Part shown: piece after piece, positions 15,501 to 64,000 of the stretch
How the letters are laid out: each line of letters opens with the position of its first letter
How positions within the stretch are numbered: position 1 is the first letter of the stretch
Assembly: GCA_039566865.1 (NCBI GenBank)
Contig: CM076951.1
Span: 18,237,484 to 18,301,483 of the forward strand
DNA length: 64,000 bases
Source: Aurelia coerulea
Taxonomy: Eukaryota; Cnidaria; Scyphozoa; Semaeostomeae; Ulmaridae
Reading direction: 5' to 3'
Notes under the pieces: model-generated
What the model was told of the DNA's origin: nothing
Databases searched by the model: none
Seen by the model: the letters and a program-made list of their open reading frames with translations, nothing else
Translations under genes and position numbers: made by a program

Positions 15501-17242
15501 CCCAAATCCTCTGCCCCCCCATCTCTAGCCCTACCCCTCGCCATTTCCCTTCTAAATAAATCTAATATGAGGTCAGTCAACGCATCAGCTCTACCTGAAA
15601 TGAAAAAGAAATAGTCGTAGATTGTAGAATGGGAACAAACATTTGCATGTAAATGTGAGAGGGGGACAAACGTTGCATCAAATACTGTATTCAAGAATAT
15701 CTTCAACCCCCTTCCTGCAAGAATCAATTACCAGTCCCCTACATGCTTCCATAGTGTAATTTTAGTTGTATAATGTCATTGCAGGTAACGGGAAAAATTA
15801 GTACAAAAGGTAGGAAAACGTGTCAGCTAAATTTTCGAACACTTCGGCATGCAACCAGCGTCGATCAAGAAATACAACCAGCGACGATCAAGTACTTATT
15901 AATACAATCAACTTTGTTTTGCAAGCAAGCATACAAATTGTTTACGTACCATTTACTGCGGGCATTTCCGCTTGTTGTGGTGGCTGGGGCCGAGCCCCAG
16001 GTGCCGCCGGATCCTTGTTTGCTTCTCCATTAATGCCAAAAGAACACAATTACAATCATTTTGTAGCATTGCATCAAAGTACTCCCCCCCCCCCCCCCCC
16101 ACAGTGTGCCCAGATCTCCAATTTCGAGAATAAATTCATAGCGCGAGAAAGAAAACTGATACAAATATGAAGGGCTCGTTACAAAGGTTTTCTAAAGGAG
16201 GACATGACATGAAGGATATCTTACAATTTTCCGAAATAGGGGGGTGCTGGGGCAAATTTCCTTATTTGGGCGATTTTGACAAAATAGCACTGTATTGAAT
16301 TTACTGCTGGTATTTTCTGAGAAGGTTTCAAGAGTGCATCAGGGATCAGCAATGGTAAAGACTACTAGTGAAAAAACTACTATTTACGAGGTCTGGGACC
16401 CAATATTCCCATGGGAATATGTAGTGGTTTCATGTCCATCTTTCTGTACTAGATTTCTTTATTTTCCGAAAATGTATTCTTTATTACGTAAAATTTTTGA
16501 AGACTAGGGTGTTCACTATAACCATTTCAATATAAATCTCAAGGAATAAAGAAAAAACGTGTGAACCTGCTTGTTTGAATTCGAGTTGTTTACTACCAAG
16601 AACTGAGTTGCTTTCGACAAAAAAGTGAGGTTTTATTTGTTTACTGCAAATAATTACCATATTTCTTGCACCTTTCTTTTAATGTAATTAGTGAATTTGA
16701 AAATTTAATATTAGTTGCAAAATATGCAGGAGAAAAATAGCTTTCTTGGGTGGCAAAAGCAATTGTGAAGTGGAGTTAGAATCCATTAGAAAGCTGGAAC
16801 AAACATGTAAGGTCATTTCAAAGTGGGCAATGTGCACGGGCAGGGCAAATTTCAGTAAAAAAGAACATTCATGGCATACAGTAAACAAATTTGCAAAAAG
16901 GAAAGGATATCTTTATAAGATATACCAGCGTCGATCGTTGGATCCGAAGATGCTTGTGGTGACGAATAAATTAATAAGTTTAAAGGCAGAAACACCGCAA
17001 TACAACAAAAAAACAACAGCAAATGGTTGAATAAATTTTATGCCAATTTACCAACAGTAAAAACCCGCACATAAGAACCTAAGATTTTGAACTTAGCCTG
17101 TTTAGGTTCTTATGCCATGAGGCACATCCAGTAATCAGGGTGTAGGTTCTTAACATAGGGAAATTTGTGAATCTAAATCTTAGCCAAACCTATTTACACT
17201 CTTGGCCCTATCCATTTCAACCCGAGCTTACCCAGTTTACTC
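12553..17242. other. 4.7 kb without a recognisable gene
   Basis: Short frames are present but none carries a domain I recognise. Notable bits are an ATATATTGAA triplicate at about 14080, a CCGCATATATAAGAACC word near 14035 echoed by CCGCACATAAGAACC near 17065 (perhaps ends of a repeat family), a low-complexity C-rich tract at 15450-15540 and a poly-C tract near 16085. Confidence 0.4.
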
Positions 17243-17503
17243 TATGGAGTTAGTTACTGGACAAATTAGTTCAACATGTTTCGGTGAGTTGAATTGCATA
17301 TAGGTGAGGGTAAATTCGTTCTTCGGTGAGGAACTGCTGACTTCGTTGAGCTGAATTTCTCTTCGGTGAGGGACTCTTCCCTTCGTTGAGGACGCATTAT
17401 TGTTTCGTTGCGGAGGCGTTTATTTTGTGCACTTTTCGGTGAGGAGGTGGTCGGCAATTAAGGGGGCGTGTTTAGCCTTTGACTGACAGCTACTTGCAGC
17501 CTG
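17243..17503 (+). repeat. Left terminal inverted repeat with phased TCGGTGAG motifs
   Basis: Matches the reverse complement of 27216-27486 almost base for base. The main difference is a 10-bp insertion in the right copy near 27405-27415. It contains a run of (T)TCG(G/T)TGAG-like words spaced close to 20 bp apart, likely transposase-binding sites. Confidence 0.95.
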
Positions 17504-17844
17504 CATGATTTGATAACAATCCTTGCGCGATTAATGCTTAAACAATGTGTTTACTCTTGCTTAGAGTTGATTGCAATCCTTTTTGTTTTATTTTTACTCC
17601 TTCTGTTTCATTTCATCTCTTTGAATTTGTTGTGATAGTATTTCCACACTATGATAAAAATTTTTCGTCAAATTTTTCTTGATAGCGGAGCCAATTGCTA
17701 TCCCATTTTCCATGTTTCCTCTTACGTGTAGGGTAGGCCTAGGCCTTCTACTGTTGAATTTATAAGTATCGAAAAACAACTGAAGTAAGCTCGCCATTTG
17801 ATCGCTCAAATAAAACACGAAAAGCTGCTTCCCATCACGTCATC

Positions 17845-19320
17845 ATGGCTTCGCCATCACGGCCTCCAGAAGAGAATTTACGTACTTTTCTTGTTACAAA
17901 TTTGAGAGAAATAAGTAGAGAACTGGAAAATTTTCCGTTGGTGGAGCAATCTGTGATAGATTATGCTTTGTATAGACTTGAGCAAGTAGTAATCATGTCA
18001 ATTGAATGTCAAAGAACATGGCCTAATGTTATCGACGATACAGCACTTGACCTGATTCTACGGGTATACTGGGACTTGGATGATCATGCAGCAAAAGAAA
18101 ATATTAATATCAACGAAGGTAAGCGTGGCAGAGCAGCCATTGATATTCCCAAAGAGACACTGGAATTGTATCTTAAGTATGGATTTACAAAAACTAAGAT
18201 AGCAGAATTATTTTGTGTCAGCACTAAAACGATTTCACGGAGAATTGAAGCGTTTGGTTTGCAGGATCATATCGTTGAACACGCTGAAATATCTGATCAA
18301 GAGCTCGAAAAAATCATTGGGGAAATATTCTTGCAGTTTCCTAACTGCGGAATTCGAAGAATGAAGGGATTCCTCTTTTCAAGAGGGCTCAAAGTCCAGT
18401 GGGCACGAGTTCGGGAATCTATGTGGCGCGTTGATCCAGCTGGTCTTCTGTTGAGAACGACCCAGTTAAATACAATCAAGCGAAGGAAATATCATGTGCC
18501 TGGAACATTAGCTTTATGGCACCTGGACGGGAACCATAAACTTATTCGATGGCGTTTTGTAATCCATGGCTGTATAGATGGATATTCACGTCATATTGTT
18601 TTTCTTCAGTGCTCTACTAACAACAGAGCAGCAACAGTGTTAGATCTCTTTAAAACAGCCGTAAATCGATATGGCCTTCCATCAAGAGTAAGGGGGGACC
18701 AGGGCGTAGAAAACGTGGATGTTGCACTCTACATGTTTAGCCACCCTCTTCGAGGAACATCAAGGGGGAGCTTCATTTCTGGGAAAAGCTGTCATAACCA
18801 AAGAATAGAACGGTTCTGGCGGGATCTTTTCAGCGGCTGTCTTTTCCTTTATTATTATTTATTCTACTTCCTGGAAGAGCAGGGATATCTCGACATTAGT
18901 GATGAACTTGATTTATTTTGCCTTGAATTTGTGTATCGTCCAAGAATAAACTGGCACCTTTCCATGTTCCTTGAAGGATACCATAACCATCCCATTAGAA
19001 CTTCCAATAACATGACGCCGTTGCAACTTTGGGTACAGGGACAGTTAAACTATCAGCCAACGCACACAGATATCCCTGTGAACACAGATATTGAAGAATA
19101 TGGAATCGACTGGGATGGTCCTCTACCCTCTGCCAGATATGATGGCCCCAACTATGAAAACGACGGTGTTATAATTCCAGACCTCAGTTGTCCTTTATTG
19201 AACATTGAGCAAGAACTTACCAGATCAGTAAACCCTTTGGGAGAATCCGAATCAAATGGTATCGACATCTATCTGCATGCAAGAGACCTTATCAAAGCCA
19301 GAATTGAAAGCGCTGTTTAA
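17845..19320 (+). CDS. DDE integrase-like transposase (rve-type core)
   Basis: A 491-residue open frame, uninterrupted. A helix-turn-helix lies at about residues 108-138 ([21 protein letters not shown]). The integrase core has D228 (LWHLDGN), D285 (RGDQGVEN) and E322 (NQRIERFW), with 36 residues between the second Asp and the Glu. Nearby signatures [10 protein letters not shown] and NNRA are typical of the integrase-core proteins found in fish and invertebrate genomes. The start ATG at 17845 lies 341 bp inside the left terminal repeat and is the first in frame. It should bind the element ends and catalyse cut-and-paste strand transfer in the nucleus. All three acidic residues are present, so activity is plausible. 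Confidence 0.9.
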
Positions 19321-20184
19321 GTTGTTCTTTTAAAGGACATATGTCACGTTAGCAATTGGTTAATACAACAAACAATTTTGGAGTGGAATTCCATTGTTTC
19401 GTGACTTTTTATTTCTGTTTCATGAATTTTTATTGCAATGAAAATTCAGCCTCGATCCTGTGGTTTGTGATAAACAATAGAGAGAATTGTATTGCATGAA
19501 CCAATCAGCTTCATGACATATGCCCTGATGTGCGTCCATAATTTACGCGCAAAAATATACAATCAAAACGACACCTTGAAGGGTTTAAAATACGCACATT
19601 TTTATCTTGCTACATAATACAAGTCCTTCAAATAAGCATCCAAGTGGTTATTTATCAGATTAATTCCAAATTCAGTACAATTTCAATGGCAGTTGCACAA
19701 CTTTTATGCAGCACATAAATTCCCCATAGATCCATTTAAAAAATATGACTTTGTAGTATCAGGGATCCTGGGGATCTGATGAAGAGTTAAGCCCGAAACG
19801 TTGTAACTATTCTTGGTCTTCATACAAAGTCTTTTTCTAAATGAATTTATGTTTTATCGACGCTATTGACGTACAACACACACGACAACTTTGTTTTCTG
19901 AAGCTTTGCAAACAAATCTCTTTTATACCCATACCGCCCTTCCGCATGCACCTGGTGTATATCACCATATCTATTTTGTGTTTCTTGTAAGTCGTAACCC
20001 TAAAGAGGCGCACACAAACTAGAAGGTAATAGATCTGAAAATCTTTATTCAGACTGGAGGCTAAGAAAATAGATGCTTTCCAGCAACATTTGATAAATGC
20101 AAATGGCTACGTGAAATGCAACAGAATTCTAAATATCAATATAAAAACTAAGATAATTGAAGTGCATACACTATATACTAACTA

Positions 20185-20535
20185 TGGGGTGTCCCAAAAC
20201 AGTATCAGCGTTTGAACAGTTCCTGCGAATGAGAATTTTTATTTTCATTTTATGGCATCGATGAGATCTCAACTTTGCATGTCCGAGTCGGGTATGTATT
20301 CACAGAGTAATTCAACTAAAGAGGCAAAATTTGTGAGGCAGCCGAAGACAGATGGTTAATTCAATCACCATCTGCTGCCTCAGGAATGTTGCCTGTTTAA
20401 ACCCGATTTGGACATGCGAAGTCGCAAAATCTAAGTTAAGATCTCATCTATATCATAAATTGAGAAGAAAAGTTTTTGAAGCCAAGGCTCCTTCGCAGGA
20501 ACTGTTCAAACGCTTAAAATTCTTGGGATAACCGG
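20185..20535. mobile_element. TA-flanked MITE, 351 bp
   Basis: Ends TGGGGTGTCCCAAAAC and CTTGGGATAACCGG are imperfect mirror images, flanked by TA (20183-20184, 20536-20537). The arms pair further inward (GTTTGAACAGTTCCTGCGAA with its near complement at about 20500). Same family as 10592-11555. Confidence 0.7.
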
Positions 20536-21847
20536 TAAAATTATTTGAACAAAAGCTAATGCAAAGAAAACCATAACCTTGCCCCGCATCAGCCATAGAT
20601 CGAATAGTTAAGAATGAGAATACGACTCCACGTTAATCACTGCAGTGACATTAAAATCCACGATTCACTCTGAGGGCAGGGGCGGGACAGGAAGAGGAGT
20701 GTATTATATGTATACTTGTACATAAACACTGATTCCAAGACAAGGCTTTTGTAAGTTGAATATATTCAATTCAACTTTTTTCATACTAGTTGTTGCCTTT
20801 TCATACTAGTTGTTGCCTTTTTTCATACTTCATACAGCACTAAGAGTAATTACAGGTATATATAAAAAAAGATTTGTATCCTTTACGACCAAAGTAAAGC
20901 ATAGCTTATCTAGCTTTCGCCGTTGAATTAAATTACAAAAAAGAAAAGTAAAATATGAGTAAATATCGAAAATTACAGCATTGTCATAATAGATATATAA
21001 TGATGAAAGATTAATTGTTCATAAAATGATAATTCTAATTCTGAATATAAAGGAGCAAGCCGCAAAAACGCGCGGACCATTAACGTCCTTGATTATCTAC
21101 GAAACTCTAAAGATAACTACAATGCCCGCTTCCGCTTCAGACATATTCAAGAAAGTGGGTGCAACTTGACCACCCCCATTCCCACTGTGGCCCCCCTACT
21201 GAAATAAATGAATTGCATATTTAGTTAAATTCGTTTATGATGCAAAGGTACGTTGATTAAAAAGAGTTCAGTACTTTATCTCGCATTACCAGTTTACAAG
21301 TCTTTAGCGAAGGTTTCTAATTTAATTTTGTGAAAGTAGTTATACTTCAAAGCAGCCTGCGTGAATCCTAAGCAAAAATGTGAAATTTTGATGAGGCAAT
21401 GGATGGGATTTTTCTGTTTTCTTTTTTCAAGCAAAATTAATTCATCTTGTATCAAAATTTCTTGCTTTGCTTACGATACCTAAATATCTAAAGTCCCTCA
21501 AAAGCAAGGTTAAGATTTTCAAATTGGTATTTCAGAACGTGAAGGCAAGAGGCCGCTAATTTGACTGCCACATGCGATGTATGGGCCGGCAAAATTGAAT
21601 TCCAAAATTGAAAATGTTTGCGACATGCGACATACCAGTGAACTCTAGAATAGTCTAGGAGCAACAGAATTTTTCAAGGGCTTGATGCCATTTCGGAGAA
21701 AAGGGATAATATAGTAGCACAATATAGAATAGAACTGTACTTCAAAAATTTACTGTACAGGAAAACAAAAGCCACACTGTCTCTGAATCAGGTCCAAATA
21801 TCAAATTGGTGTATACTTAAATAACTTTTCATTTTCCTATTACTATA

Positions 21848-22551
21848 CCGGGTGTCTCAAAAAAAGTACCCGCTTTTGACTGAACAAGGGAACACAACGA
21901 TAACATTCCGGGACTTTTTGATTCATGGCTACATTTGTTGGTCTTCAACTTAAATGCACATACCTTGCATTTGGAAATCGATCACCAAACACGGGAGATA
22001 TGAGTTGATAAGGTCAAAATTTGGAGTGTACCTGAAACCAGAGGTTTTGAGACACCACACAGGCATTTTGCAAACGAATTTTCAACTTTTACCTTTAGTT
22101 TTTATTTTTGAAAAGATTTATACCTAGAATTACTTCAATTTTTCTTGAAGTGACTTTTCTTTTGAGGAATCGGTCCTTGAATTGCATTCGATCCCAAGTG
22201 TTTTGTATCAAAGAAGAGGAAAAGGAGCACATGCACGCTTATTTTGGAGACGTGGCACGACTTTATCATTCTTACCACATTTTTAGTATAATCGTTTCAT
22301 CAGGGACATGTCCATGCGTCTTTTATTCTTTTCGAAAGCCAAAATCTGAAAACTAGCGTTTACAGGTGCTTTGCAAAATGTCCATGATACAAATCATGGC
22401 TAGGCCCTTTTTCAAAACGATTTCTAAATGCAAGGTATGTGCATCTAAGTTGAAGATTGAAAAATTTAGCTGCAAGGTCGGGGAGCAATGATATCTTATT
22501 GTTTGGTTCCTATTTCCAGTCAAAAAGGGGTACTATTTTTGAGGCACCCAG
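21848..22551. mobile_element. TA-flanked MITE, 704 bp
   Basis: Begins CCGGGTGTCTCAAAAAAAGT and ends with the near complement (TTTTTGAGGCACCCAG), with TA on both sides (21846-21847, 22552-22553). Subterminal arms repeat GTATGTGCAT words in inverted orientation. Non-coding. Confidence 0.75.
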
Positions 22552-22713
22552 TAAGTCATAAAACCATGATGTATTTTGCTTTTTTTGCAAGTATTCTAAT
22601 CAGCAAAGCCCTATTGTTTCTTCAGAAAATGCTGCTGAGCAAGTTGCCTCTGCTCGACATAAATGTTTCAAAATGACATATATGATATAGTACTGAAATT
22701 TTTATACCTAAAG

Positions 22714-25700
22714 TCACGGATTTGGGAAGCCCCGTCTGGCATGCTTAATAGCTGCAACCATTGCCTGTTCAAATTTCTTTTCCGACGAGTGAACTGTAGG
22801 GAGTCTGAGTATCATCAAACATGCAGATGCAGTTGGCAAGGAATAGACATCGTCGTCTGGTAGGAATTCTACCTTTATCGTGATGGACACTCCAGGCTGT
22901 GGTGTTTCCCATCCAGTTGTAAAAGCCAACATTGCCTTGACTCTAGACTCATCGTCGTCTTTATCCACTGCTTTATTTCCATTGTCTATGAATTTAAGGA
23001 ACCATCCATAGGCTTGCTTTTCCGAAAAATTTGATGGCACTGTCTCCTGGAGCAGGGATTTGAAGTCTTCTGGACCGAACAAAATTTCTTTAACAGAAAG
23101 AAGCTCCTTGAATTGATCTGGATATTTGCTGATGAAAGTAAAGAAACCCAACGTGTCTAGTCCATGTCTTATTTCCTTAATCAGTTCATTTCTTGAACGG
23201 ATAATTTCATTATACATTATCTCCTGAATAAAGGAGCTCTTGTTACAATTTTGTATTGTTTCATGAATTGGCCAGTGCGAAGAGTTCACTATTTGCCAAT
23301 ATGCATCGGACCTTTCAGATGAAGCGAACACATCTTTAACACTCTTTTCATCCATGGCTAGATCTAATTCTTCAACGAGATAATGAAGGTTCTCTGTAGC
23401 AGCATTTAATGGAATGTCGTGTTTGCTTAAATGGCTATATACCGCATCACTGCTCTCCCCGAGCAAAGCTGAAACAACGGATGGAGCCAACTGTGGAAGA
23501 TTCTGTGTGGGCCCACCTTGCACAACGGTATGCACAACCATCATCCCGCACAAGCGAAAGAGAAACATTTTAGTTACGTCCTTGATAGGAACTAAACGTG
23601 TTACATTTCCCTCAAATAATCTTTTCTGCACATGCTCCCAGGCCATATTGAAAAATTCTATCTTGACAGAGCCTCCATCCAAACCCTCTTCATCTTTGAA
23701 ATTCACTTCGAACGTCTTCGCCAAATCACTGGCATCTCCAGCTACTTTTCTTTTGTAGTACTTTAGTACGTCGGACCAAATGGTATCCCTATCAACCTGA
23801 ATTTCCTCGAAACCAACTTTAGAAGTGAAATGCTGAAAATCTGATAGCAGCGAATTCAGGTTTGGATGACCGGAAATAGGAATTGAACGATCATCAACCT
23901 TCCTTCGTTTTGGCAAAGCTTCTTCAGATATAGCGCTTGTCGTTGCTTTTGGTGCTTCTTTTTCAGTATGAAACGGAATTTCTTCGAGTAAATTATTAGC
24001 TGCTTCTTCAAGAGAAGAGCAACCCATGACAGCAACATCAACCTGGCTTTTGGTATGGGATGGGAAAAGGTTGATTAGCTCTTTTTTCCATTCTTGTTCC
24101 CTAGATGACTTTTCTACATCCAGTTTGCAAATATTTGGCACCTCATAAATTTGCTTATCTTCGTCCTCGATTTCTTTCGTGCCGTCGTTAATCTCTTCGT
24201 CAGACCATTCATCAAACATTTCATTTCTTGTTGTGCTGCTACAGGTTGAGTCCCCTTTTGTACATTGCGCCATGTGACTTCTCATGGAAGCTAAGGGAAC
24301 CTCCCTGCAACAGTTCCTGCAATTTGTTTTTATGTAATCATCTGTATGCGAAATAACCTTTGATAATGGAAGGTTAGATTGCATTGGACGTACGTACAAC
24401 AACGTGTTTGTACTTACTTGTTCTTTTAAGTGGGGTACCGTGTAGCCTTGAGGAGACATGCTTATAAGAACAAGAGGACTGTTCACTCCACCCCTATCTG
24501 CACGCAAAAGCTCGAATGCACCACCTTGAGATTTCAATTTGGGGTACACTGTTTCGAGAACTTGACGGACCTTTCCATGACTTGATCTTTTGTCGTCGAA
24601 AGTTATTTTCCTTTTCCCCAGGCCTGCTTCTTTCAAAGAAATTAGGCTCGATGTCGTCGGTGTTCTCGTGACCCCTTTCTCAGATAGCAGGCAGAAGTCA
24701 TGAGTCCAAGAATCTTTTGGCTGCACGAATATTACATTTTTCTGCTTTCTTTGTGGCTTTTTCCTCTGTAATATTTGACGGCTGCCTCCACCACCAATGC
24801 TTGGAAATGCTCTCCTGGTAGCAAAGGAAAGAAATTAATTAATTAAACGCAAACAATTTCCAATGTCAATATTTTCGCATATTTCAAACAAACTAAATTT
24901 TAAAGTCTGAATTTTGTTGTTGTCTGAAACATTTGCAGTGCAGAAAAGTTGAAGTCAGTATTGATCTTTGACCAAATAACGGAGCCCATTATGTGAGCTA
25001 CTCAGAGGTACCACCCAGAGCAGTACAAAGAAAGCTGTAAAGTCCAAAGGAACTTTGAACATGAATGGTGATTAACTGTGTCTGACTGAAAATTGAAATT
25101 CACTGCTTAAATTGAGACCAATATTTCATTGAGCAAGATCAATATTGTAATCATGCGAAGCTGTCTTGCAATTTGCAAATAGTTGTCACATTTTAATTGT
25201 TTCAAACTCAAGGCATTTATCTCTCAAAGCATTTGCAGACATTCACTTAACTTTATTAACAGCTAGTTTTACTGCTTAAAGATGTAATTTCTTGCCCTCA
25301 AAACATTTTGCATTGTTCAAAAATCTTGTCATTAAAGATGGGGGCAAAGTTATACAATGATTTTCATATAGACGTTAGAACTGCCGAAAACAAGAAGGAT
25401 TTTAAGAAAACATGGCAAGTAACTCAGTAAAGTAAACTTGGCTTTTTAAGATCATCATGCACTTTTAATGGGATATTTATTCACAGTTATATGTTTTTAA
25501 TATTACCTTTTTCTTTTTAAGCAGGACAGGCATTGAAAACAGCAAGTTTGTTGAAGCTTTAATCCTGTCCTGCTGTCAAAATATTCGTATTATAATTTGG
25601 TCCTTTCGTGCATGAATCCTAAAATTGGAGTTGTTGCTGTTTTTGTTGTTGATTTTGGCGTCGGAAAATTTTGGTTCTTCGCCCCCCTATGAATTCAAGG

Positions 25701-27142
25701 CTGATGTCGGGCCTGGGCATTATTGAGGGAAAACTTTCCTTACACACGTACACCATCAGTTAGGATCCTGCCAGCATATCTTGCGGTCAACTCTAGCGAG
25801 TGCTTAAATTCACTCTCCAAAAAATCACGTACACCTTTGGTAAAATCCTTTTGTTTTCAGGAAAAGTCCGTGAAAAATCCTGAAAATCCTATTGCTTGAA
25901 AGAATCTCGTACGATTTGTTTGGGAAAGCCCGTACACGCATAATCCGCATTGTGTTGAAGCTATTGTTGTTTTTGTAGTTAGAAAAATTTTGGAGTACTC
26001 CATTTGCGTCATAACCTCGCATGCATGTCGTCTACCGTAAGAGATGGTATGTTTTTAACAAAGAAGACCAATTAGTAATAATACAAGAACTGACGTAAGT
26101 TGTAGTGAGATAAGTATTTGATGACAAGAGAACATAAAAAAGGTTAGGGCCATTTCTATGGTTAGGGCGTAGAAAGTTATTGACGTCTTATTGTAAGTTG
26201 AGTTTGACATAGTTGTGTTGAGATGAGATAAAAAAGATGTAGTCGAAAATGATAATTGAAGATGGAATCCAAAAACGTACAAGTGTGTATTTCTTCGAAT
26301 GAATCTTCAATCCTGGACAAAATATTCGTAACCAAGTTACTTTTTTGGTGATTATCTCAGTTCTTCTCACTCTTACATTTGCACCACCCCCTTTTACCCC
26401 CGAAACAATGATGGTTGGCTGGCATCTTGAAGCTGAAAACTTCCAAGCAACATTGTATCAGGGGTAAAAGGGGGGTTGTTCATTTGAAATCATAGAATCT
26501 TACGTACGTTGTTCCGATATATTTTGTCCATGATTGTTGGTTTGGAAGCGTGTATCGAATTAGCGAAAAAATAGATTGCGATCTATAAAACGCTTTTCTG
26601 AAAGTGTGATACGCCCCGTAAAGGATAGCAACAATCTTAAAATAATGGCTCTCAAGCAAAATTTACGATGTTACTTAAGGAGTATGTAAGATGTATTGCT
26701 CAGAACAAGGTTTCAACCTATCCTTCGGCAAAGCGATCACCAACAAAAGAGATCACAAATAGAATTTAGTGATAGGTTCGATAAGCGAATTTAGTTGAAC
26801 GGCACATATAAAAGTAAAGGCAAATGTTATTAAAATGTTATCGTAACAACCGGGAGCTTACCTGAAATCCTGGTTGATTGCTTCAGCGTTTCCAGATGAA
26901 AAGCGCGTCAAAGAAGTGCTTGGAAATGTGGCACGCGGTGTTGGAATGCCAATTTGCGACGGAAAGCGAGTTGGTCTTGCTTGTCGCATTGGTGGTACAA
27001 ACGGTGGTATATCTATATGCGAAGAAGAATGGCCATCGTCAGCCCTGTGGCTACTTTCTTCCAGTCTTTCAATTCGCTGAATCGCAGTTGCGAGCTTTTC
27101 AGCTAAATCTTCGTTCTTTTCTAAGTTTTCGTTACCCTCCAT
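22714..27142 (-). CDS. CUE-HECT E3 ubiquitin ligase encoded by the large transposon
   Basis: Two exons join in frame: 27142-26862 (donor CAG/GTAAGC) and 24814-22714 (acceptor TTTGCTACCAG/G), giving 793 residues. Exon 1 has a short coiled coil and a Pro-rich tract. After a basic stretch (QRKKPQRKQK) comes WTHDFCLL, a C2HC zinc-finger-like site at about 259-278 (CRNCC...HMAQC), an acidic linker, and a CUE-like ubiquitin-binding domain at about 337-373 (LINLFPSH...CSSLEEAANNLLE). The HECT domain covers about 430-790, with LDGGSVKIEFF, MLAFTTG and the catalytic-type Cys about 759 in LPTASACL. HECT proteins take ubiquitin on this Cys before passing it to a substrate. The start ATG is 73 bp inside the right terminal repeat. 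The role in transposition is unknown. Confidence 0.85.
24815..26861 (-). other. Intron of the HECT gene
   Basis: GT at 26861-26860 and AG at 24816-24815 on the minus strand, with a pyrimidine-rich acceptor. No other coding was recognised inside. It contains one small inverted-repeat element (26383-26477). Confidence 0.75.
26383..26477. repeat. 95-bp inverted-repeat element in the HECT intron
   Basis: CACCCCCTTTTACCCC at the left is mirrored by GGGGTAAAAGGGGGGTTG at the right, with pairing continuing through CAATG/CATTG and CCAAC/TTGG words. It would fold into one long hairpin. Confidence 0.7.
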
Positions 27143-27215
27143 CTCGAACGAAACACCCCCTTATCTGTTATCATCTTACTTTTGTGCAGAAAATCAATGC
27201 TCTCGTAAAAAAATA

Positions 27216-27486
27216 CAGGCTGTAAGTAGCTGTCAATCAAAGGCTAAACACGCCCCCTTAATTGCCGACCACCTCCTCACCGAAAAGTGCACAAAATAAA
27301 CGCCTCCGCAACGAAACAATAATGCGTCCTCAACGAAAGGAAGAGTCCCTCACCGAAGAGAAATTCAACTCAACGAAGTCAGCAGTTCCTCACCGAAGAA
27401 CGAATTATGAACGATTTACCCTCACCTATATGCAATTCAACTCACCGAAACATGTTCAACTAATTTGTCCAGTAACTAACTCCATA
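27216..27486 (-). repeat. Right terminal inverted repeat
   Basis: Reverse complement of 17243-17503, carrying the same phased CTCACCGAA words plus a 10-bp insertion. It ends CTCCATA, 16 bp before the hAT element. Confidence 0.95.
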
Positions 27487-28267
27487 CTCCCTACGTTGCC
27501 TCCAGGGGCGCACATTAGGGGGGGTGTGGGGGGGTGAGACACCCCCCCAATAATTTCTGAGTCGGTCCAAAAATTTTCTCAAAAAGGAAAAGTCGGTCCA
27601 CGACAAAATCGGATGGACCAACTTCGTGGACCGACTTCGTGGACCGAATTTTTCATGGACCGACCAACCACGACGAAGCTCGAAAGGTCCACAATAGTTT
27701 GAATCAAAGTTGGTCCGATTTTAAATCTTTTGGGCAAAAGTCGACCCATGACGACAGTTAGAATATTCACAAGAAGTTCTTGACAATTAGTAGGAGCGTC
27801 GTTCTAAGCCAAAGCAGAAGATGGCATTTAAAAAAATTTCTTAGATGCATTACAAAAATTGCACAGGCTTCCATTTTTAGGGGCAAGCAATCATTGGCTT
27901 TTAAAAAGCGGTCTAACACAAAATGGAAGATGTTTGTTGTGCAAAGATTGTCCCAAGGAACAATGCTGTTACAAATACTCAAAATTTCTAATCTGGCACT
28001 GGGGTGCCGGTGGTGGTAGTTATGTGGCGTTGGAAAACAGACACTTGTGTATGAATCCCAAAGAAGAAAGGAGACATGGGTTACAAATATTATCCATCAA
28101 AGTGGTAAACGCTTCTACCAAAAGCTAACACTGCTGACACTATGATCATAAGGGGAAACCTTCTTAGAGGACAAACACACTAAAACAAGTCGCTTTTGCT
28201 AGGCTTGCCGGTGAAGAAGTCGTTGTTCTTAAGATTACGCCTATACTTAAAACTCCAAGTCCGTGAT

Positions 28268-28525
28268 GCATTCTAAGCCAAAGTAAAGGATCTTTCTTCA
28301 AAAATTTTTCTCGTTCGCTGATTTATAGCATAAATGTCAAAAACGATAAAGGTTTCCTTGTCACTAAAGTCAAGCATGATATTGGGAGATTCATTCTAAG
28401 CCAAAGTAAGGGATCTGTCTTCAAAAATTTTCCTCGTGCGATAATTTATAGCATAATTGTCACAAAACGATCAAGGTTTCCTTGTCGCTAAAGGCAAGCT
28501 TGATATTAGGAGATGCATTCTAAGC
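28268..28525. repeat. 123-bp tandem repeat inside the hAT element
   Basis: The word TTCTAAGCCAAAG recurs at 28271 and 28394 and, cut short, at 28517. Units share CTTCAAAAATTTTTC and TTTCCTTGTC. One more unit sits in the same orientation at 31022-31160, and a diverged one at about 27800. Related GCATTCTAAGC words occur in the hAT MITE at 41.2-42.0 kb. Confidence 0.8.
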
Positions 28526-29215
28526 CAAAAGGGCTCCGTCAACCAGTCAAGTGTCAAATCTTCCAACCAGCCATGATTGGCTGGTTCTTCAGTATCAATG
28601 ATGTTTGGCGATGCTTGTCTCCATATTTTTACTACAAAGTTTGCGTGATTTATGTGATTTTCGAGGCTGCCTTTACATTGGGGCAGCAATGATAGATCAA
28701 CAAATTTAGAATATAGCTCTTCTTGCTTCATTCTCTGACATTAACCGTTTCTCCCCATACAGACTGCAAACAAACGTTTCCAAGCCAAGGAGCAAATTAG
28801 CACTTGCACAATTTTCCTTAGGTACCAAGCTCTGCAAATATTTCTTGAAATTTTTCCTTGCCTTTCATGAGCTTCCAAAATGCAGGCTTTCCTTTCCGCA
28901 AGAAGGACGAGATGTAATCATTTCCCAAAAATTCATGCAGGCCAAGGAGGGATTGCTTTGTAACTGAGATAGCTCAAATGCATCTAGATCAAGTAGCCGC
29001 CTGTATTTCCCTGTTCTATTATCGATGAAGACATTTACATTTTCAGCTTCGTTGGCTAACAGATGATAGGAATATCAACATCCCAAGAACTAGAGCGCAC
29101 AATGCAAAGTGTCTCCTGCGCATTATTCATCCGAAGGGCATGGTGAAGTAGGTAGCAGATCTTGGTATCAGCCTCCTCGTGATTTTTGTTTAAGTCTTGT
29201 ACCTGAATAAGCAGT
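28525..29215 (-). pseudogene. Captured XPG/CXC-family segment, left arm
   Basis: On the minus strand the frames give EEADTK-like sequence, DVDIPI, LLANEAENVNVFIDN, GKYRRLLDLDAFEL, then LLGLHEFLGNDYISSFLRKGKPAF (helix-hairpin-helix region), KFQEIFAELGT and, from 28731, MKQEELYSKFVDLSLLP through HINHANFVVKIWR to WLEDLTLDWLTEP. This order matches the C-terminal half of the pseudogene at 0.9-3.2 kb up to the cysteine cluster. Small indels and stops break it. It has no insertions, so it serves as the empty-site reference for the right arm. Confidence 0.7.
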
Positions 29216-29314
29216 CTAAGCAATGGACTAGTTTACTTTGCAAGACCACGAGGAGGTTGATACCAAATCTGCTACCTACTTCACAGTACCCCTCTGATTG
29301 ATAATGGGCAGGAG

Positions 29315-29760
29315 CCCAGGGGGGTACTCCAATTGTGGCCTGACAGGGGGGTCCAGTCAGGGTTAAAGAGGGCCAAAGCAAAAAGTTTGAAAAATACCCT
29401 CAAATGGTAGCATCTTTTTACAGAAACCCCCAAATGGTAGTTCGTGGACCTAAAATTGGGCCATCTGGTAGCATCTAGCAGTGACAATTTTCTGCAGCTT
29501 TTCAAAATTTTCTATTGTAAAAACTGATTGAACGAAGCAAGAAAGCTTCAAAATTCATTGATAATTATTGCTGCAACGACCATATCGCCGTGCGGAGGAG
29601 CCTACTGAGTTGAAATCTTATAACTGGCCAGGAATCTTGGAATGCCCCCAACTGGTAGTATATGTTGACAAATAAGGCCATTTCGTAGCCATTTCGTAAG
29701 ACCCTCAAACCGACTGGACCCCCCTGTTAGGCCATAATGGGAGTCCCCCCCCCCCGGGGA
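29315..29760. mobile_element. Nested inverted-repeat element, 446 bp
   Basis: Ends CCCAGGGGGGTACTCC... and its near mirror, with about 50 bp of terminal pairing that includes GACAGGGGGGTCCAGTC. CAGGAG flanks both sides (29309-29314, 29761-29766). The uninterrupted left arm has CAGGAG once at the matching place, confirming the insertion. It contains C/CCAAATGGTAG words. Superfamily not assigned. Confidence 0.75.
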
Positions 29761-29940
29761 CAGGAGACAGTTTGCTTCTTTGTGCTCAAGTTCAGGAGAT
29801 GTTGATATGCCTAGCATCATGTTAGCCAACAAAGCTGAAAATTTGCATCTCTTTATCGATAACGGAACAGGGAAATACAGGGGACTACTTGATTTAAATG
29901 CATGTGATCTATCTCTGTTACAGAAGCAAGCCATACTGTT

Positions 29941-30361
29941 GCACAGGGCTCATATGTTGGTCCGCTGCTATTCTTAATCTACATTAATGACCTTCCATTT
30001 GCTCTGCGAAGTTGTAACGTAACGATGTATGCAGATGACACCAGTCTTTCATATGCAAAAATACAGAAAAAATAATTCATTGAGACTAAGAAACACCGAG
30101 GCTGACTTGCGTGTTCCTCACTTCAAAACGTCGAATGGGAAGAGTCTATTTCATTTCGTGGGCCTAAGAGTTGGAACCAATTCCGCTTAGATGTCAAACA
30201 TGCACCCTCCCTTCTTACATTCAAAAAGTAGCTGAAAGAGAAATTGTAGAGGGTAGCTTGTTTACTTTCCTTTGATTTAGATTCGTTTTATGTAATATTT
30301 TTTGCATGGCCCCCTTTAAAGCAGTCTCTGTAGACTAATAGAAAATGAAAATGAAATAAAT
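29941..30361 (+). mobile_element. Truncated LINE fragment
   Basis: Reverse-transcriptase motif [18 protein letters not shown] followed by MYADDTSL (29950-30060). A jump then leads to the C-terminal signature SLFHF...RGPKSWNQFRLDVK and LLTFKK, shifted in frame, and an A-rich 3' end (AATGAAATAAATAG). A 5'-truncated, internally deleted non-LTR retrotransposon. Comparison with the left arm confirms it is an insertion. Confidence 0.75.
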
Positions 30362-31334
30362 AGGAAGCCCTTCTTGGCCTGCATGCATTTTCGGGGAATG
30401 AACATCTCGTCCTTCTTGCGGAAAAGAAAGCCTGCATTTTGAAAGCTCATGAAAGGCAACGAAGAATTTTAAGAAATATTTGCAGAGCTTGGTACCTAAG
30501 GAAAATTGTGCAAGTGCTAATTTGCTCCTTGCCTTGGAAACGTTTGTTTGCAGTCTGTATGGGGAGAAACGGTTAATGTCAGAGTATGAAGCAAGAAGAG
30601 CTATATTCTAAATTTGTTGATCTATCATTGCTGCCCCAATGTAAAGGCAGCCTCGAAAATCACATAAATCACGCTGACTTTGTAGTAAAAATATGGAGAC
30701 AAGCATCGCCAAACATCATTGATACAGAAGAACCAGCCAATCATGGCTGGTTGGAAGATTTGACACTTGACTGGTTGACGGAGCCCTACCCGGAGGATAT
30801 TGCAGAGCTATTTTTAGTGAACAAAGAAAGAGAAACCGCATCAGAAGAAGAAATTGAATTAACCAAACAGTTTCACAAAATTTCTTGATTTTTTATTTTC
30901 TAACGCTGAGCAAGAGGAGAGAGATGATAACAAAAATGTTATCCCCCCCTGAAATTTCCTACTCCCCCCAAATGTCGAGAAAGTCACAATTTTCACTAGA
31001 AAGGTGACTGCAACACCAGGTGCTAACAAAGTAAGGGATCTGTCTTCAAAAATTTTCCTCGTGCGATGATTTACAGCATAATTGTAACAAAACGATCAAG
31101 TTTTCCTTGTCGCTAAAGGCAAGCATGATATTGGGAGATGCATTCTAAGCCAAAATAAAGGGCGTAGCCCCGAACATTTTCCTGGGGACCCCCTCATTTC
31201 AATACCTCCACGTAATTTACCCTAGCCGCACCGCTGCTTGCTATACGTTCAGTCGGTCCAAAAAAAATGTAGTCGGTCCAGAGCATGTTGACACCCCCCC
31301 AAACAAAATTTGAATGTGCGCCCCTGGTTGCCTC

Positions 31335-42594: not shown

Positions 42595-44815
42595 TGAAGT
42601 AGCTAAGTTTTTTTATTCTTAGTCAACTCGTTCACTAAATCTTAGATTTCCCTACGGAAGGAATATTCGTTGAATTAGCGAACGAAGTAGCTAAGTTTTT
42701 TTCTTTCGTGGGAATTGCAGGATTCTTAGCCAACTCGTTCGCTAATTCTTAGATTTCCCTACGGAAGGAATGTTCGTTGAATTAGCGAACGAAGTAGCTT
42801 AGTTTTTTTCTTTCGTGGGAATTGCAGGATTCTTAGCCGACTCGTTCGCTAATTCTTAGATTTCCCTACGGAAGGAATATTCGTTGAATTAGCGAACGAA
42901 GTAGCTAAGTTTTTTCCTTACATGGGAATTACAGGATTCTTAGCCAACTCGTTCGCTAATTCTTAGATTTCCCTACGGAAGGAATATTCGTTGAATTAGC
43001 GAACGAAGTAGCTAAGTTTTTTTCTTACATGGGAATTGCAGGATTCTTAGCCAACTCGTTCGCTAATTCTTAGATTTCCCTACGGAAGGAATATTCGTTG
43101 AATTAGCGAACGAAGTAGCTAAGTTTTTTTCTTACATGGGAATTGCAGGATTTTTAGCCAACTCGTTCGCTAATTCTTAGATTTCCCTACGGAAGGCATG
43201 TTCGTTGAATTAGCGAACGAAGTAGCTAAGTTTTTTTCTTACATGGGAATTGCAGGATTCTTAGCCAACTCGTTCGCTAAATCTTAGATTTCCCTACGGA
43301 AGGAATGTTCGTTGAATTAGCGAACGAAGTAGCTAAGTTTTTTTCTTACATGGGAATTGCAGGATTCTTAGCCAACTCGTTCGCTAATTCTTAGATTTCC
43401 CTACGGAAGGAATATTCGTTGAATTAGCGAACGAAGTAGCTAAGTTTTTTTCTTTCGTGGGAATTGCAGGATTCTTAGCCAACTCGTTCGCTAATTCTTA
43501 GATTTCCCTACGGAAGGAATGTTCGTTGAATTAGCGAACGAAGTAGCTTAGTTTTTTTCTTTCGTGGGAATTGCAGGATTCTTAGCCGACTCGTTCGCTA
43601 ATTCTTAGATTTCCCTACGGAAGGAATATTCGTTGAATTAGCGAACGAAGTAGCTAAGTTTTTTTCTTACATGGGAATTGCAGGATTCTTAGCCAACTCG
43701 TTCGCTAATTCTTAGATTTCCCTACGGAAGGAATATTCGTTGAATTAGCGAACGAAGTAGCTAAGTTTTTTTCTTACATGGGAATTGCAGGATTCTTAGC
43801 CAACTCGTTCGCTAATTCTTAGATTTCCCTACGGAAGGAATATTCGTTGAATTAGCGAACGAAGTAGCTAAGTTTTTTTCTTACATGGGAATTGCAGGAT
43901 TTTTAGCCAACTCGTTCGCTAATTCTTAGATTTCCCTACGGAAGGCATGTTCGTTGAATTAGCGAACGAAGTAGCTAAGTTTTTTTCTTACATGGGAATT
44001 GCAGGATTCTTAGCCAACTCGTTCGCTAAATCTTAGATTTCCCTACGGAAGGAATGTTCGTTGAATTAGCGAACGAAGTAGCTAAGTTTTTTTCTTACAT
44101 GGGAATTGCAGGATTCTTAGCCAACTCGTTCGCTAATTCTTAGATTTCCCTACGGAAGGAATATTCGTTGAATTAGCGAACGAAGTAGCTAAGTTTTTTT
44201 CTTACATGGGAATTGCAGGATTCTTAGCCAACTCGTTCGCTAATTCTTAGATTTCCCTACGGAAGGAATATTCGTTGAATTAGCGAACGAAGTAGCTAAG
44301 TTTTTTTCTTACATGGGAATTGCAGGATTCTTAGCCAACTCGTTCGCTAATTCTTAGATTTCCCTACGGAAGGAATGTTCGTTGAATTAGCGAACGAAGT
44401 AGCTAAGTTTTTTCCTTACATGGGAATTACAGGATTCTTAGCCAACTCGTTCGCTAAATCTTAGATTTCCCTACGGAAGGAATGTTCGTTGAATTAGCGA
44501 ACGAAGTAGCTAAGTTTTTTTCTTACATGGGAATTGCAGGATCCTTAGCCGACTCGTTCGCTAATTCTTAGATTTCCCTACGGAAGGAATGTTCGTTGAA
44601 TTAGCGAACGAAGTAGCTAAGTTTTTTTCTTACATGGGAATTGCAGGATTCTTAGCCAACTCGTTCGCTAATTCTTAGATTTCCCTACGGAAGGAATATT
44701 CGTTGAATTAGCGAACGAAGTAGCTAAGTTTTTTTCTTACATGGGAATTGCAGGATTCTTAGCCAACTCGTTCGCTAATTCTTAGATTTCCCTACGGAAG
44801 GAATATTCGTTGAAT
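42595..44815. repeat. 107-bp satellite array, about 20 units
   Basis: The word AGCTAAG or AGCTTAG recurs every 107 bp (42689, 42796, 42903, 43010 and on). The first unit is short (88 bp), lacking the ATGGGAATTGCAGGA part. Each unit has an imperfect 24-bp inverted repeat (TTAGCGAACGA facing TCGTTCGCTAA) around a T-run. Variant units (TTTCGTGGG, GGCATG, TTTTTAGCC) recur exactly 749 bp apart, i.e. seven units. Confidence 0.97.
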
Positions 44816-59902: not shown

Positions 59903-60027
59903 GTAATTCTGATATATTTCAAGTTTACCTCTTGTGCCATTCTTTGATCCAGTTAAAGTGATTTCAATAGCACTGGGCTCCATGTAAATTTTTACTGGAG
60001 CGAAGCAGGCAAATCAGGATTCGACGA

Positions 60028-61185
60028 ATGATGTCTCATGCATCTGCTCTTATGACTGCCAGATCGATACAGTTGCAAATAGCGTCTATTCAATATTTTG
60101 AAAGGATCTATCAGAATCGTAGGGCATGGGTTTATCACAGGCAAGAAAATGAATTTGATGTTTATTATCAGGCTGACCCAAATACAAGTAAAGATTTGGA
60201 TCCTAACTATTGGATCACCAATTATCGTATCAACCGCGAGACATTTGACTTCATTTGTCAAGTTGTACATGAGTATATGGTGAAAGAAGAGACAAATATG
60301 CGTGCAACAATCCCAGTACAAAAAAGGGTTGGCGTTGCACTTTGGTGGTTGGCAAACGGAGGTTCCTATAGATCTATTGGTCAGACTTTTGGTATTTCCC
60401 GCTCAATCGTTTGCCGAATTACGAAGGACTTTATCGGCGCACTCGTTTATCTCAGGGACGAATTTATTTCTTGGCCCCGAACACCGGAAACTTGTGCAAG
60501 ATCAGTAAGCACGTTTAAAGATCTATCCCCTCTGCCCAATGTTTTTGGGGCTATCGATGGGACACATGTGCAAATTATTGCACCAGAAAATAGCACTGTG
60601 GACTTTTTTGATAGAAAGCAGCATTATAGCATAGGTTGCCAAGGTATTTGCGACGGCAATCTCAAGTTTTTGAGCATGTCTACGGGTTTTCCTGGGTCCG
60701 TTCATGATGCACGTATACTTCGAAACACTTGGGTTTTTAGAGAAGCGAATAGGCAGCAAATATTGACCACGCCCACATTTCAGCTAAATGGGACGACCTG
60801 TATCAAGCCGTATTTAGTCGGCGATGCAGCCTATCCTCTTGCAGACTGGCTCATTAAACCTTTTCCCCAAGTCCAAAACATGGATAATCAACAACAATTG
60901 TTCAATTTGGCTCTGTCACAGGCCAGGGTTTCCATAGAGAGAGCATTTGGAGTTTTGAAAGGCAGGTGGAGAATTTTGTTAGGAAAGGTCAATTTGGAGC
61001 CTTCCTTTGCTTCGGATGTTGTTATCGCATGCAGTGTTCTTCATAACATTTGCCAGGAACGGAATGAGCCTATCCAAGAGGTACACGACCCATACACTGA
61101 AGAGGACAACCAAGGCCTGGAAACACGTCAGTCGTCAGATGAAATCAGACAAAAGCTTCTTAACTATGTTGTTCACCAAAATTGA
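60028..61185 (+). CDS. Harbinger (HARBI1-like) DDE transposase, intact
   Basis: 385 residues without interruption. A helix-turn-helix lies at about 108-132 (ANGGSYRSIGQTFGISRSIV). The catalytic triad of the DDE_Tnp_4 fold is visible: D177 in GAIDGTHV, D266 in VGDAAYP and E304 in VSIERAFGVLKGRW. Accessory FPGSVHDARI is at 221-230. Length and motif order match animal HARBI1/PIF transposases, which cut and paste at TWA targets with help from a Myb-like partner. Two ATG codons start the frame (60028, 60031). The gene lies 125 bp after the last SET exon, on the same strand. Confidence 0.92.
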   Translation: MMSHASALMTARSIQLQIASIQYFERIYQNRRAWVYHRQENEFDVYYQADPNTSKDLDPNYWITNYRINRETFDFICQVVHEYMVKEETNMRATIPVQKRVGVALWWLANGGSYRSIGQTFGISRSIVCRITKDFIGALVYLRDEFISWPRTPETCARSVSTFKDLSPLPNVFGAIDGTHVQIIAPENSTVDFFDRKQHYSIGCQGICDGNLKFLSMSTGFPGSVHDARILRNTWVFREANRQQILTTPTFQLNGTTCIKPYLVGDAAYPLADWLIKPFPQVQNMDNQQQLFNLALSQARVSIERAFGVLKGRWRILLGKVNLEPSFASDVVIACSVLHNICQERNEPIQEVHDPYTEEDNQGLETRQSSDEIRQKLLNYVVHQN

Positions 61186-61770
61186 ATAGACTGAATTTTA
61201 ATTTGGGAACAAATGATGCACCGGTTGTAATTTGTAACTTTGTAATCTGTATTTTAGATTGTGATTCAATAACAAGATAGCTCTTTAAAGTAAAGTCATT
61301 GACACATCTAGCACATTGCTCGACAGAGAAACATTTACAGAAGAAACATAAAGGATTGAATTCAAGCTATTGTTTCCAATTAATGCTCCTTTGATAGAAT
61401 AAAAATAATGCTGCTGAAATACACTCATTTGTCAAGAAAAACCACAACAAAAAGCATCCATCAAAACAAGTACAGAAATTACACTGAACATGCAGTCGAG
61501 GAAAATTCAGAAATTTACTTAGCACACTAGTTGGGTCGGCAGTACGACCCCCCCCCCCAGTGATTGGTTTATTTTTGGAAACCTTTAATTGAAGATTTTG
61601 GTAGCGGATGTGTCAAAAACAAACTTTCTGTGTCATTGCTGAAATCTTGAATAGTTTCTCGTATCAAAATGGGCGTAATGTATGCCTTCTTTTAGGCCTA
61701 TATCAAGATTAAGTTTTAATCAAAAGTGTTTTCAATATAAACAGGAACAAAACGAAGGTCAGCTGTATGT
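61186..61770. other. Intergenic stretch between convergent Harbinger genes
   Basis: No coding. Contains an 11-nt C-run near 61550. Confidence 0.6.
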
Positions 61771-62865
61771 CTAATCACTTTCACTTTCACTTGGAGAAGA
61801 TTCGTCTCTTCTTTCTCTTTTTCCTCCTCTTTTTCCGTGTCTCCCCTTGGCAAATAGATTTGCAACACACAGCAAAGTATCAGCTGTGTGCTTTCTGCTG
61901 CTCTCTTCGATCTTCTGCATACCTTCTATAAACTGTGTCATCGTTTCTTGCTGTTGTTTTTGTATTTCACCAAGAAAGTCAATTAGCTGAGTTGCAGCTG
62001 CAGATTTGGAAGCTTTCTTCTTCTTTGAGCGTTTTGGCTGTGTTTCCTCTGTATCTTGACTTGCTGCAAGATCATTTTGTGCAGTTGGGGTATTGATGTC
62101 AGTTTCATCAGCTGGTTTGTCAGTAACCAGTGCAGTTGCCTCTTCAAATTCAGCAGGGGGATGTCGTTGCCCGCTCTCCCGAACTTCACCAAGTTGCACT
62201 AAGCTTCTTGTGCCGAGCACTTCATCGAAAATATCGTAGTACTTGGGCAAGTTTTTTCCAGAGCCGCTCTTTTTGTTTTTGTCCTTGGCATCTTTGTACC
62301 TGTCCCTTAAATTCCTTAGTTTTTTCTTTACTTGATCGAGAGTTCTTTTCTTGCCTTTCTTGTTCACTGCTTCTAGAATGCGTTTCCAGGCCACAGGATT
62401 CTTGTGACTTTCTAAATCAACGAAGCTTTCCCTCCAAGAGAAGACGAGTGCATCTGTTTCTGCTGTTGTCCACCTATTTTTACCTTTTTCCGGATCCTCA
62501 TCTCTTTCTTGTGTTCCTTCTGATCTTGAGCGCAAACTTTCTTGTGTAGCAACATTCGGTTGTATGCTGTCACTTTGATACTGGCTTTCGAAGAAGGAGG
62601 GCTGGAAAACATGTCTTTGGACGTTTGGAACAAAACCTTGAAAATTGTTTAGGCCTTGAGCCATGGGAAAACCGCGTGGTTGAAAATATGGTATAGGCGT
62701 GCTTGTTCTTCTGTGCGGCTGTATTGGAGGTTCTGAAAACAAGGATGGTGAGTTTTGGTATGACGAGTACAGATCTGGATCTTGTGAGTCTTCATAATCG
62801 TATTCATTGCGATTTTCCTGGTTGTCTGAGAATTCTTTGTTTACAAAATGTCGGAAGCCTGCCAT
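61771..62865 (-). CDS. Harbinger Myb/SANT-like DNA-binding protein
   Basis: 364 residues, one exon. An N-terminal low-complexity region (Gln, Pro, Ser, aromatic) precedes a trihelix Myb/SANT-like domain at about 130-220 (NRWTTAETDALVFSWRESF, KRTLDQVKKKLRNLRDRYKD). A basic KRSKKKK signal lies near 280, a coiled coil at about 290-335 and a Lys/Arg then acidic-Ser tail (RRDESSPSESESD). This is the second protein of PIF/Harbinger elements, which binds the element ends and helps bring the transposase into the nucleus. It is convergent with the transposase and fully open, so the cassette is young. Confidence 0.85.
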   Translation of the reverse strand: MAGFRHFVNKEFSDNQENRNEYDYEDSQDPDLYSSYQNSPSLFSEPPIQPHRRTSTPIPYFQPRGFPMAQGLNNFQGFVPNVQRHVFQPSFFESQYQSDSIQPNVATQESLRSRSEGTQERDEDPEKGKNRWTTAETDALVFSWRESFVDLESHKNPVAWKRILEAVNKKGKKRTLDQVKKKLRNLRDRYKDAKDKNKKSGSGKNLPKYYDIFDEVLGTRSLVQLGEVRESGQRHPPAEFEEATALVTDKPADETDINTPTAQNDLAASQDTEETQPKRSKKKKASKSAAATQLIDFLGEIQKQQQETMTQFIEGMQKIEESSRKHTADTLLCVANLFAKGRHGKRGGKRERRDESSPSESESD

Positions 62866-63043
62866 TTTGATACCCTGACTACCCCTGGTGCCTGGGTGAT
62901 TGCTTCGTTTTCAAAGGACTGCTTTACTGAAAGATCACCTATCATCAAAAGATTACAGTAATTGGTTGCTGCTGCGACATGCAAAAGGAAACATGAGCCG
63001 GAAGAGAAAGAATTTAACACCAGTTGGCACATCTCCCACTGCC

Positions 63044-63774
63044 TTATGCATTTTTAAGCTCTCGTGTAGATGGGGCCATAGTATTATAGGCATACATAGA
63101 TGCATGGGAATGTTTCAAGCATTTTGGTAAATCATTAATGTAGACCAAAAAGAGGAGGGGCCCAAGACAGGATCCCTGAGGAACTCCGCAAATTGTAGGC
63201 TCGGTACTAGATATTTGTCCGTTAACCCTACAACATTGCCTCCTGTCGGCAAGGTAGGAATGAAACCATTTAAATTCCTTCCCTTTAACACCATAGAATT
63301 TGAGTTTACTCAATAGAATCTTGTGATCTACTGTGTTGAAGGCTTTCTTGAGATCAATATAGACAGCTGCCGTATATAAACCCTTATCGATATTAAGGTA
63401 CCAACCATTCGTGCACCTGAGCAGACTTGTAAGGGTTGAATAGAGTGATTGAAAACTTGACTGATCCGAAAATATTAGTTTGTTGTCGTTGAAATAGGAA
63501 TACAACTGGTTGAAGACTAATTTTTCAAACAGACGCGAAACGATGGGGAGTACTGAAATCGGTCTATAATTAGACTTATTATCAGTGGACCCTTGTTTGA
63601 AGATAGGCGCAACTCGTGCAGTCTTCCATTTGTCATGAAAGCGTCCAACAGACAGGGACCAGTTGAACAGCAGTACAAGGGAGGGCGCCAAAATTTCAAT
63701 GCCAGTTTTTAAGAAAAAGCTGGAGATCATATCAGTACCAAACCCATTGGATGTTTTGATTTTCAAAAAGCTTT
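63044..63774 (-). mobile_element. LINE reverse-transcriptase fragment
   Basis: The minus-strand frame reads KIKTSNGFGTDMISSFFLK, FHDKWKTARVAPIFKQG, NYRPISVLPIVSRLFEKLV, YIDLKKAFNTVDHKILLSKL, ICGVPQGSCLGPLLFLVYIN and SHASMYAYNTM. These are the RT blocks of CR1/jockey-like LINEs. The catalytic YADD box reads YAYN, so both aspartates are replaced and the enzyme is dead. The N-terminal endonuclease is absent. The frame ends where the Harbinger region begins. Confidence 0.8.
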
Positions 63775-63783
63775 GAAAACTTT

Positions 63784-64000
63784 CGCCTTGTCGAGGGGGG
63801 AGAACGTAAACAAAGATGAAACAATTTTATCACCAAAATTTACTCCTTACATGCATGCCTTTTTGCATCATGTCCATGAATTTTTGAGACTACATAGAAA
63901 CATTAATCTGTTTAACCAACAAGGCCTTGAGAAACTCAACCATAACTCAACAAAGTCCTTCTTCAGTGCAACGTATCAAAGAGGTATTGAAGCATTTACT
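63784..64000 (+). pseudogene. Partial coding sequence running off the right edge
   Basis: An open frame (LSRGENVNKDETILSPKF, TPYMHAFLHHVHEFLRLH, NLFNQQGLEKLNHNSTKSFF, ATYQRGIEAF) continues to the window end. The TPYMH..L.HV.EF...QQGLEKLN pattern is one I recall from uncharacterised multicopy, transposon-like proteins of cnidarians. Its left side abuts the LINE fragment, so the gene is probably truncated. Function unknown. Confidence 0.45.

Follow-up and report, generated by a model that had tools for sequence, protein, structure and literature searches.

Can a DNA transposon keep a ubiquitin ligase as a working part of itself? The question is raised by a 10,244-bp element (17243-27486) in a 64,000-nucleotide stretch of the Aurelia coerulea genome (GenBank assembly GCA_039566865.1, contig CM076951.1, positions 18,237,484 to 18,301,483 of the forward strand), here called the window, in which two intact converging genes, one for an integrase-like transposase and one for a predicted HECT ubiquitin ligase, lie between inverted repeats. 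We propose that it is probably a complete IS3EU-type DNA transposon that moves by cut and paste, whose E3 ligase gene would have stood beside the transposase since before the families of such elements split and whose ligase would act for the element. Because the same pair recurs at other loci, inverted repeats enclose it, the two gene trees share most of their splits, the catalytic Cys is kept and the HECT gene is constrained, we regard the ligase as an established component of an IS3EU-type lineage. We hold with high confidence that the element is real and that its two genes are co-inherited; that the ligase acts for the element is likely, judged from comparisons of sequence.

Results

Recurrence of the HECT-transposase pair in the genome

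A search of the assembly (574 Mb, 294 contigs) for the HECT family returned 132 matches, many of them in single long open frames. Around each of 24 HECT loci (20 plus 4), a hand-picked and thus non-random set, ~10 kb was fetched; the picks were mostly near-full-length single-frame matches, and those resembling exons of host genes were excluded. Profiles built from the fetched loci together with the present element located, at 21 of the 24, a transposase of this type that converges with HECT, that of L018 being found through its neighbour L030. Counting the present element, the pair is found at 22 of 25 loci and all 22 pairs converge. As a control, the same profiles were run on the rest of the window (53,756 bases), where they match neither gene. 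Decayed copies occur among the fetched loci, as with the HECT frames in L012 and L013 and with the L036 transposase. L018, read together with L030, has a HECT frame open over 654 codons and a transposase with a stop and with Asn for the second catalytic Asp, and near L017 a weaker, same-strand transposase match lies in L029.

Inverted repeats around both genes were resolved at eight loci (L009, L010, L011, L012, L014, L015, L016 and L033; 6.7-8.8 kb), which represent five families since L009-L012 are copies of one. Exact 6-bp target duplications flank six of these elements (L010 AAAATG, L011 CTTGTC, L012 AGCGAT, L014 TGTTTC, L015 CTATTC and L016 CTGCGC). Seven start with TATGGAG and six carry TATGGAG..CTCCATA at both ends, L012 having one base changed (GTCCATA) and L015 reading TATGACG..CGTCATA. 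The termini of the nearest sister families nearly match those of the present element, with TATGGAGTCAGGTACTGGACAAATTAGG in L036 against TATGGAGTTAGTTACTGGACAAATTAG here. The search for ends was taken to 17 further loci or joined stretches, among which L033 alone was resolved; the remaining fetched loci gave no clear ends, some stretches being too short and some elements perhaps decayed.

Co-inheritance of the two genes

Sixteen families with both genes were compared, L009, L010, L012, L019, L026 and L036 being dropped as extra family copies. HECT and transposase distances are closely correlated (Mantel r 0.884, p 0.0001; r 0.864 on 12 families), and the gene trees have 9 of 13 internal splits in common, a number to be set against at most 3, with a mean of 0.18, in 2000 label shuffles. 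The catalytic Cys of the ligase is kept in all 16 families, and so are the first Asp and the Glu of the transposase triad, the second Asp being present in 15 of 16 with L018 as the exception. HECT proteins differ by 46-82% between most families, and the distance tables show HECT diverging faster than the transposase. As the same pair is carried by distantly related elements of this genome, it seems to have moved as a unit for a very long time.

These results bear on a chance arrangement, in which the repeats captured a host HECT gene on a single occasion, or in which two distinct elements happen to be neighbours. Such an arrangement would suit the single available copy of the exact family and the small foldback elements nested inside it, but the converging pair at the other HECT loci, eight times within inverted repeats, and the congruent trees speak against it, as does a HECT gene beginning so close to its own repeat (see below); segmental copying of paired loci is opposed by the extent of HECT protein difference between families. 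Chance capture of HECT is therefore rejected, its probability being vanishingly small.

Anatomy of the element

The two repeat arms (~270 bp) are 94% identical over 274 columns (17243-17506 against 27213-27486), with a single 10-bp insertion in the right arm, and within the window the 9-mers TTCGGTGAG and TTCGTTGAG are confined to them. Simulating the element 200 times with a first-order Markov model gave no open run longer than 208 codons, compared with the 491 and 706 observed, and besides the two genes a single frame of at least 120 codons exists in 16000-29000 (123 codons, antisense to HECT exon 2). The sequence-only reading, an earlier account made from the letters of the window, had described long terminal inverted repeats around two open genes with intact catalytic residues, and the ends, the frames, D228/D285/E322 and Cys759 confirm this description. 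It had also placed the start of each gene just inside its own repeat, which is apt for the HECT gene, with its ATG ~65 bp inside, but less so for the transposase, whose ATG lies ~330 bp inside. Candidate target duplications of a length other than 6 bp at this copy, CTC or, counting the element's last TA, TACTC, are both weak and were set aside.

Open frames in the gap between the genes span 50-89 codons; within the element, domain scans covered the two proteins. The two foldback repeats within the element (20192-20528 and 21838-22560), with GGGTGTCCCAAAA- or GGGTGTCTCAAAA-like ends that likewise occur in L015, are probably small nested elements. Coordinates are collected in Table 1.

Table 1. 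Features of the element, in window coordinates
Feature	Position	Strand	Details
Left terminal inverted repeat	17243..17511	+	begins TATGGAG; TTCGGTGAG four times, TTCGTTGAG twice
Transposase gene	17845..19320	+	ATG at 17845, stop ends at 19320; 491 residues; integrase-type DDE core (rva_4), D228 D285 E322
Noncoding gap between converging genes	19321..22713	.	two foldback repeats inside
HECT gene exon 2	22714..24814	-	C2HC finger, CUE-like bundle, HECT domain; Cys759 of the joined protein
HECT gene intron	24815..26861	-	2,047 bp, GT..AG (predicted)
HECT gene exon 1	26862..27142	-	begins at ATG; splice sites and frame (predicted)
Right terminal inverted repeat	27208..27486	-	closes with CTCCATA; TTCGGTGAG four times, TTCGTTGAG twice; 10-bp insertion relative to left arm

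The two proteins

The transposase matches Pfam rva_4 (E 2.9e-79), and all three residues of the triad D228, D285 and E322 claimed for it are present in the translation. In the Pfam scan rve scores under its cut-off and neither OTU nor Ulp1 appears up to E 1; a PDB sequence search with the transposase gave no matches.

The HECT exons are predicted to join in frame into a protein of 793 residues, with a HECT domain over the Pfam cut-off (46.8 bits against 23.9). Cys759 aligns with the catalytic Cys of E6AP within LPTxxxC and a Phe stands four residues before the C-terminal end, so that the predicted protein resembles HECT ligases of the E6AP/UBE3A kind in both respects. Unlike E6AP, to which the match is limited to two stretches of ~60-75 residues, it has an N-terminal half with a CUE-like bundle and a C2HC zinc finger, the latter overlooked by the sequence-only reading. 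Pfam CUE has no match in this protein, and among ten relatives it is over the cut-off in one, below it in six and not seen in three. A three-helix bundle is predicted with confidence and matched chains of the CUE and UBA type with middling scores, its top match being a KAP1/KRAB entry; together, the predicted bundle and the relatives support a CUE-like domain. The proposed 793-residue CUE-HECT protein from two in-frame exons thus stands as to its HECT domain, length and exon join, but its CUE domain, having no Pfam match, is better called CUE-like. For the HECT part AlphaFold gave an unusable model (predicted local distance difference test score, pLDDT, 36), which did not enter the structure search. 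The ligase may resemble G2E3-like genes of invertebrates. One piece of the HECT intron (25809-25920) is a dispersed repeat that recurs in L005, L023 and L032 at 81-83%.

Selection on the genes, and observations to be weighed

Against sister family L033 the transposase has a ratio of nonsynonymous to synonymous substitution rates (dN/dS) of 0.088, at dS 2.5. For HECT, the proportions of nonsynonymous (pN) and synonymous (pS) differences are 0.236 and 0.84 in the comparison with L033, and 0.25-0.38 and 0.79-0.85 in the further between-family pairs.

Several observations weigh against the explanation proposed here. Synonymous sites in the HECT comparisons are saturated, and near-identical HECT copies of other families give dN/dS of 0.33-1.39 on few changes, one pair being identical. 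The present copy is not flanked by a 6-bp target duplication (TTACTC on the left, CTCCCT on the right), and two of the eight resolved elements, L009 and L033, also have none. L017 and L021, which are one family, and L025 show no converging transposase within ~13 kb of the HECT end; they could belong to decayed or to larger elements, or be genes that stayed behind. The HECT tree joins L015 and L028 as sisters and the transposase tree keeps them apart, which may reflect a swap or long-branch attraction. All relatives come from one genome and from hand-picked loci. Finally, physical linkage alone suffices to make gene trees run in parallel, and such trees are uninformative on the target of the ligase.

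Given low pN between families and near-neutral ratios among recent copies, selection is visible between families and not among recent copies. Copies drift after insertion, as transposon copies do, and the constraint appears to be a long-term one, on copies still moving. The near-neutral ratios would equally suit a passenger, that is, a HECT gene of little or no benefit to the element, but drift is expected in recent copies in any case, pN remains far below pS between families in which the Cys is without exception kept, and some of these families should have lost a 2-kb gene that served no use; we consider a passenger quite improbable. The claim that selection acts on the ligase as part of the element is upheld by 21 of 24 paired loci, eight of them in inverted repeats, and by the constraint on HECT between families. 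Of the two outcomes named in advance as refuting it, repeats that never contain the HECT gene and a syntenic host HECT gene without repeats, neither was seen, but three of the 24 HECT loci were without a partner.

Other features of the window

Adjoining the element, 28530-30787 has inverted arms of ~428 bp that are 96% alike and contain TATGGAG/CTCCATA in outward sense, probably by chance. Farther along lie a tandem array of ~2.2 kb (42615-44815; period 107 bp, copies ~97% alike), a Harbinger-type pair (59971-62910) made up of a DDE_Tnp_4 transposase (59971-61185, plus strand) and a Myb/SANT protein (61771-62910, minus strand), and a reverse transcriptase fragment on the minus strand (63044-63826; RVT_1, E 8.7e-23). 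Rfam gave no matches in the window.

Discussion

By its TATGG..CCATA ends the element fits the IS3EU superfamily, which the sequence-only reading had not named; its transposase, with rva_4 and an intact triad, is putatively of the IS3EU clade. IS3EU elements have TA..TA termini and usually 6-bp duplications (PMC10045372). In fungi, the TET-carrying ones have TAYGG..CCRTA ends, and their TET/JBP gene is flanked by the transposase on one side and on the other by an alpha-kinase gene in the opposite orientation (PMC12730594). With IS3EU/GingerRoot (PMC10045372; PMC12730594), the present element shares TA..TA ends, repeats of more than 30 bp (~270 bp here) and an integrase-like DDE transposase; 6-bp duplications are seen in its relatives rather than in this copy. 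As in the fungal elements a second gene faces the transposase, an alpha-kinase there and a HECT ligase here, whereas Pfam scans of our element's two proteins revealed neither kinase nor TET.

Transposons with enzymes of the ubiquitin pathway have a precedent in Ginger1, whose transposases have OTU or Ulp1 domains and for which the authors proposed that the ubiquitin pathway has a role in transposition (PMC2836005). Like Ginger1 and the Mutator-like elements that bear OTU or Ulp1 domains (PMC2836005), the present element is a DNA transposon bearing an enzyme of the ubiquitin or SUMO pathway. Unlike theirs, which remove ubiquitin or SUMO, the predicted ligase would attach ubiquitin, and it is encoded by a separate gene rather than fused to the transposase as in Ginger1 (PMC2836005). 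"HECT" does not occur within PMC12730594 or PMC2836005, and searches of the open-access literature found no description of a HECT-carrying transposon; Repbase and most subscription journals were outside the scope of this search, and it is quite possible that a database alone already records HECT in IS3EU elements. Viral, bacterial and archaeal contigs yielded no relatives, nor, for HECT, did phage records, which carries little weight as these collections are without eukaryote genomes; the first 27 bases of the repeat likewise have no match in the viral contigs, a collection without eukaryote genomes.

We propose a model in which both genes are driven from promoters that would lie in the near-identical terminal repeats. 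The transposase would bind the repeated TTCGGTGAG motifs, then cut and join the ends with a 6-bp stagger, and the ligase, aided by its CUE-like and zinc-finger modules, would ubiquitinate a nuclear protein and thereby enable successful transposition. Joining complexes of the integrase type are very stable, and for this reason we prefer as first choice a ligase that clears the spent transposase-DNA complex, marking it for removal and letting repair follow; removal of a host silencing or restriction factor would rank second and the summoning of repair third. The transposase-DNA complex is nonetheless put forward as the target only tentatively. The sequence-only reading had suggested a host restriction factor, the transposase or chromatin at target sites as possible substrates.

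A ligase serving counter-defence would instead cause the destruction of a host factor for silencing or restriction, and not act on the transposition complex. Anti-silencing cargo has precedent in IS3EU because fungal members carry TET/JBP genes, which in these and other elements are thought to undo methylation silencing (PMC12730594). HECT also changes more quickly than the transposase, which would suit a gene in an arms race, but quick change may equally reflect a relaxed constraint, and pN is still much lower than pS; we regard counter-defence as rather unlikely.

If the model is extended from this element to its relatives, it is conceivable, though doubtful, that a whole branch of IS3EU-type transposons needs an E3 ligase of its own in order to move, either the complex or a host block being ubiquitinated, and that this branch is a main source of the many single-frame HECT genes in such genomes. 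To our knowledge, a built-in ubiquitin-attaching step is not known from any other transposon. The carried enzymes known so far remove ubiquitin or SUMO (PMC2836005); that of the present lineage would attach ubiquitin, and it has been kept while 16 families, sampled in one genome, diverged. With a natural two-gene element of this kind, the role of the ubiquitin system in transposition can be tested. Furthermore, our findings suggest that many of the single-frame HECT genes now attributed to hosts belong to transposons.

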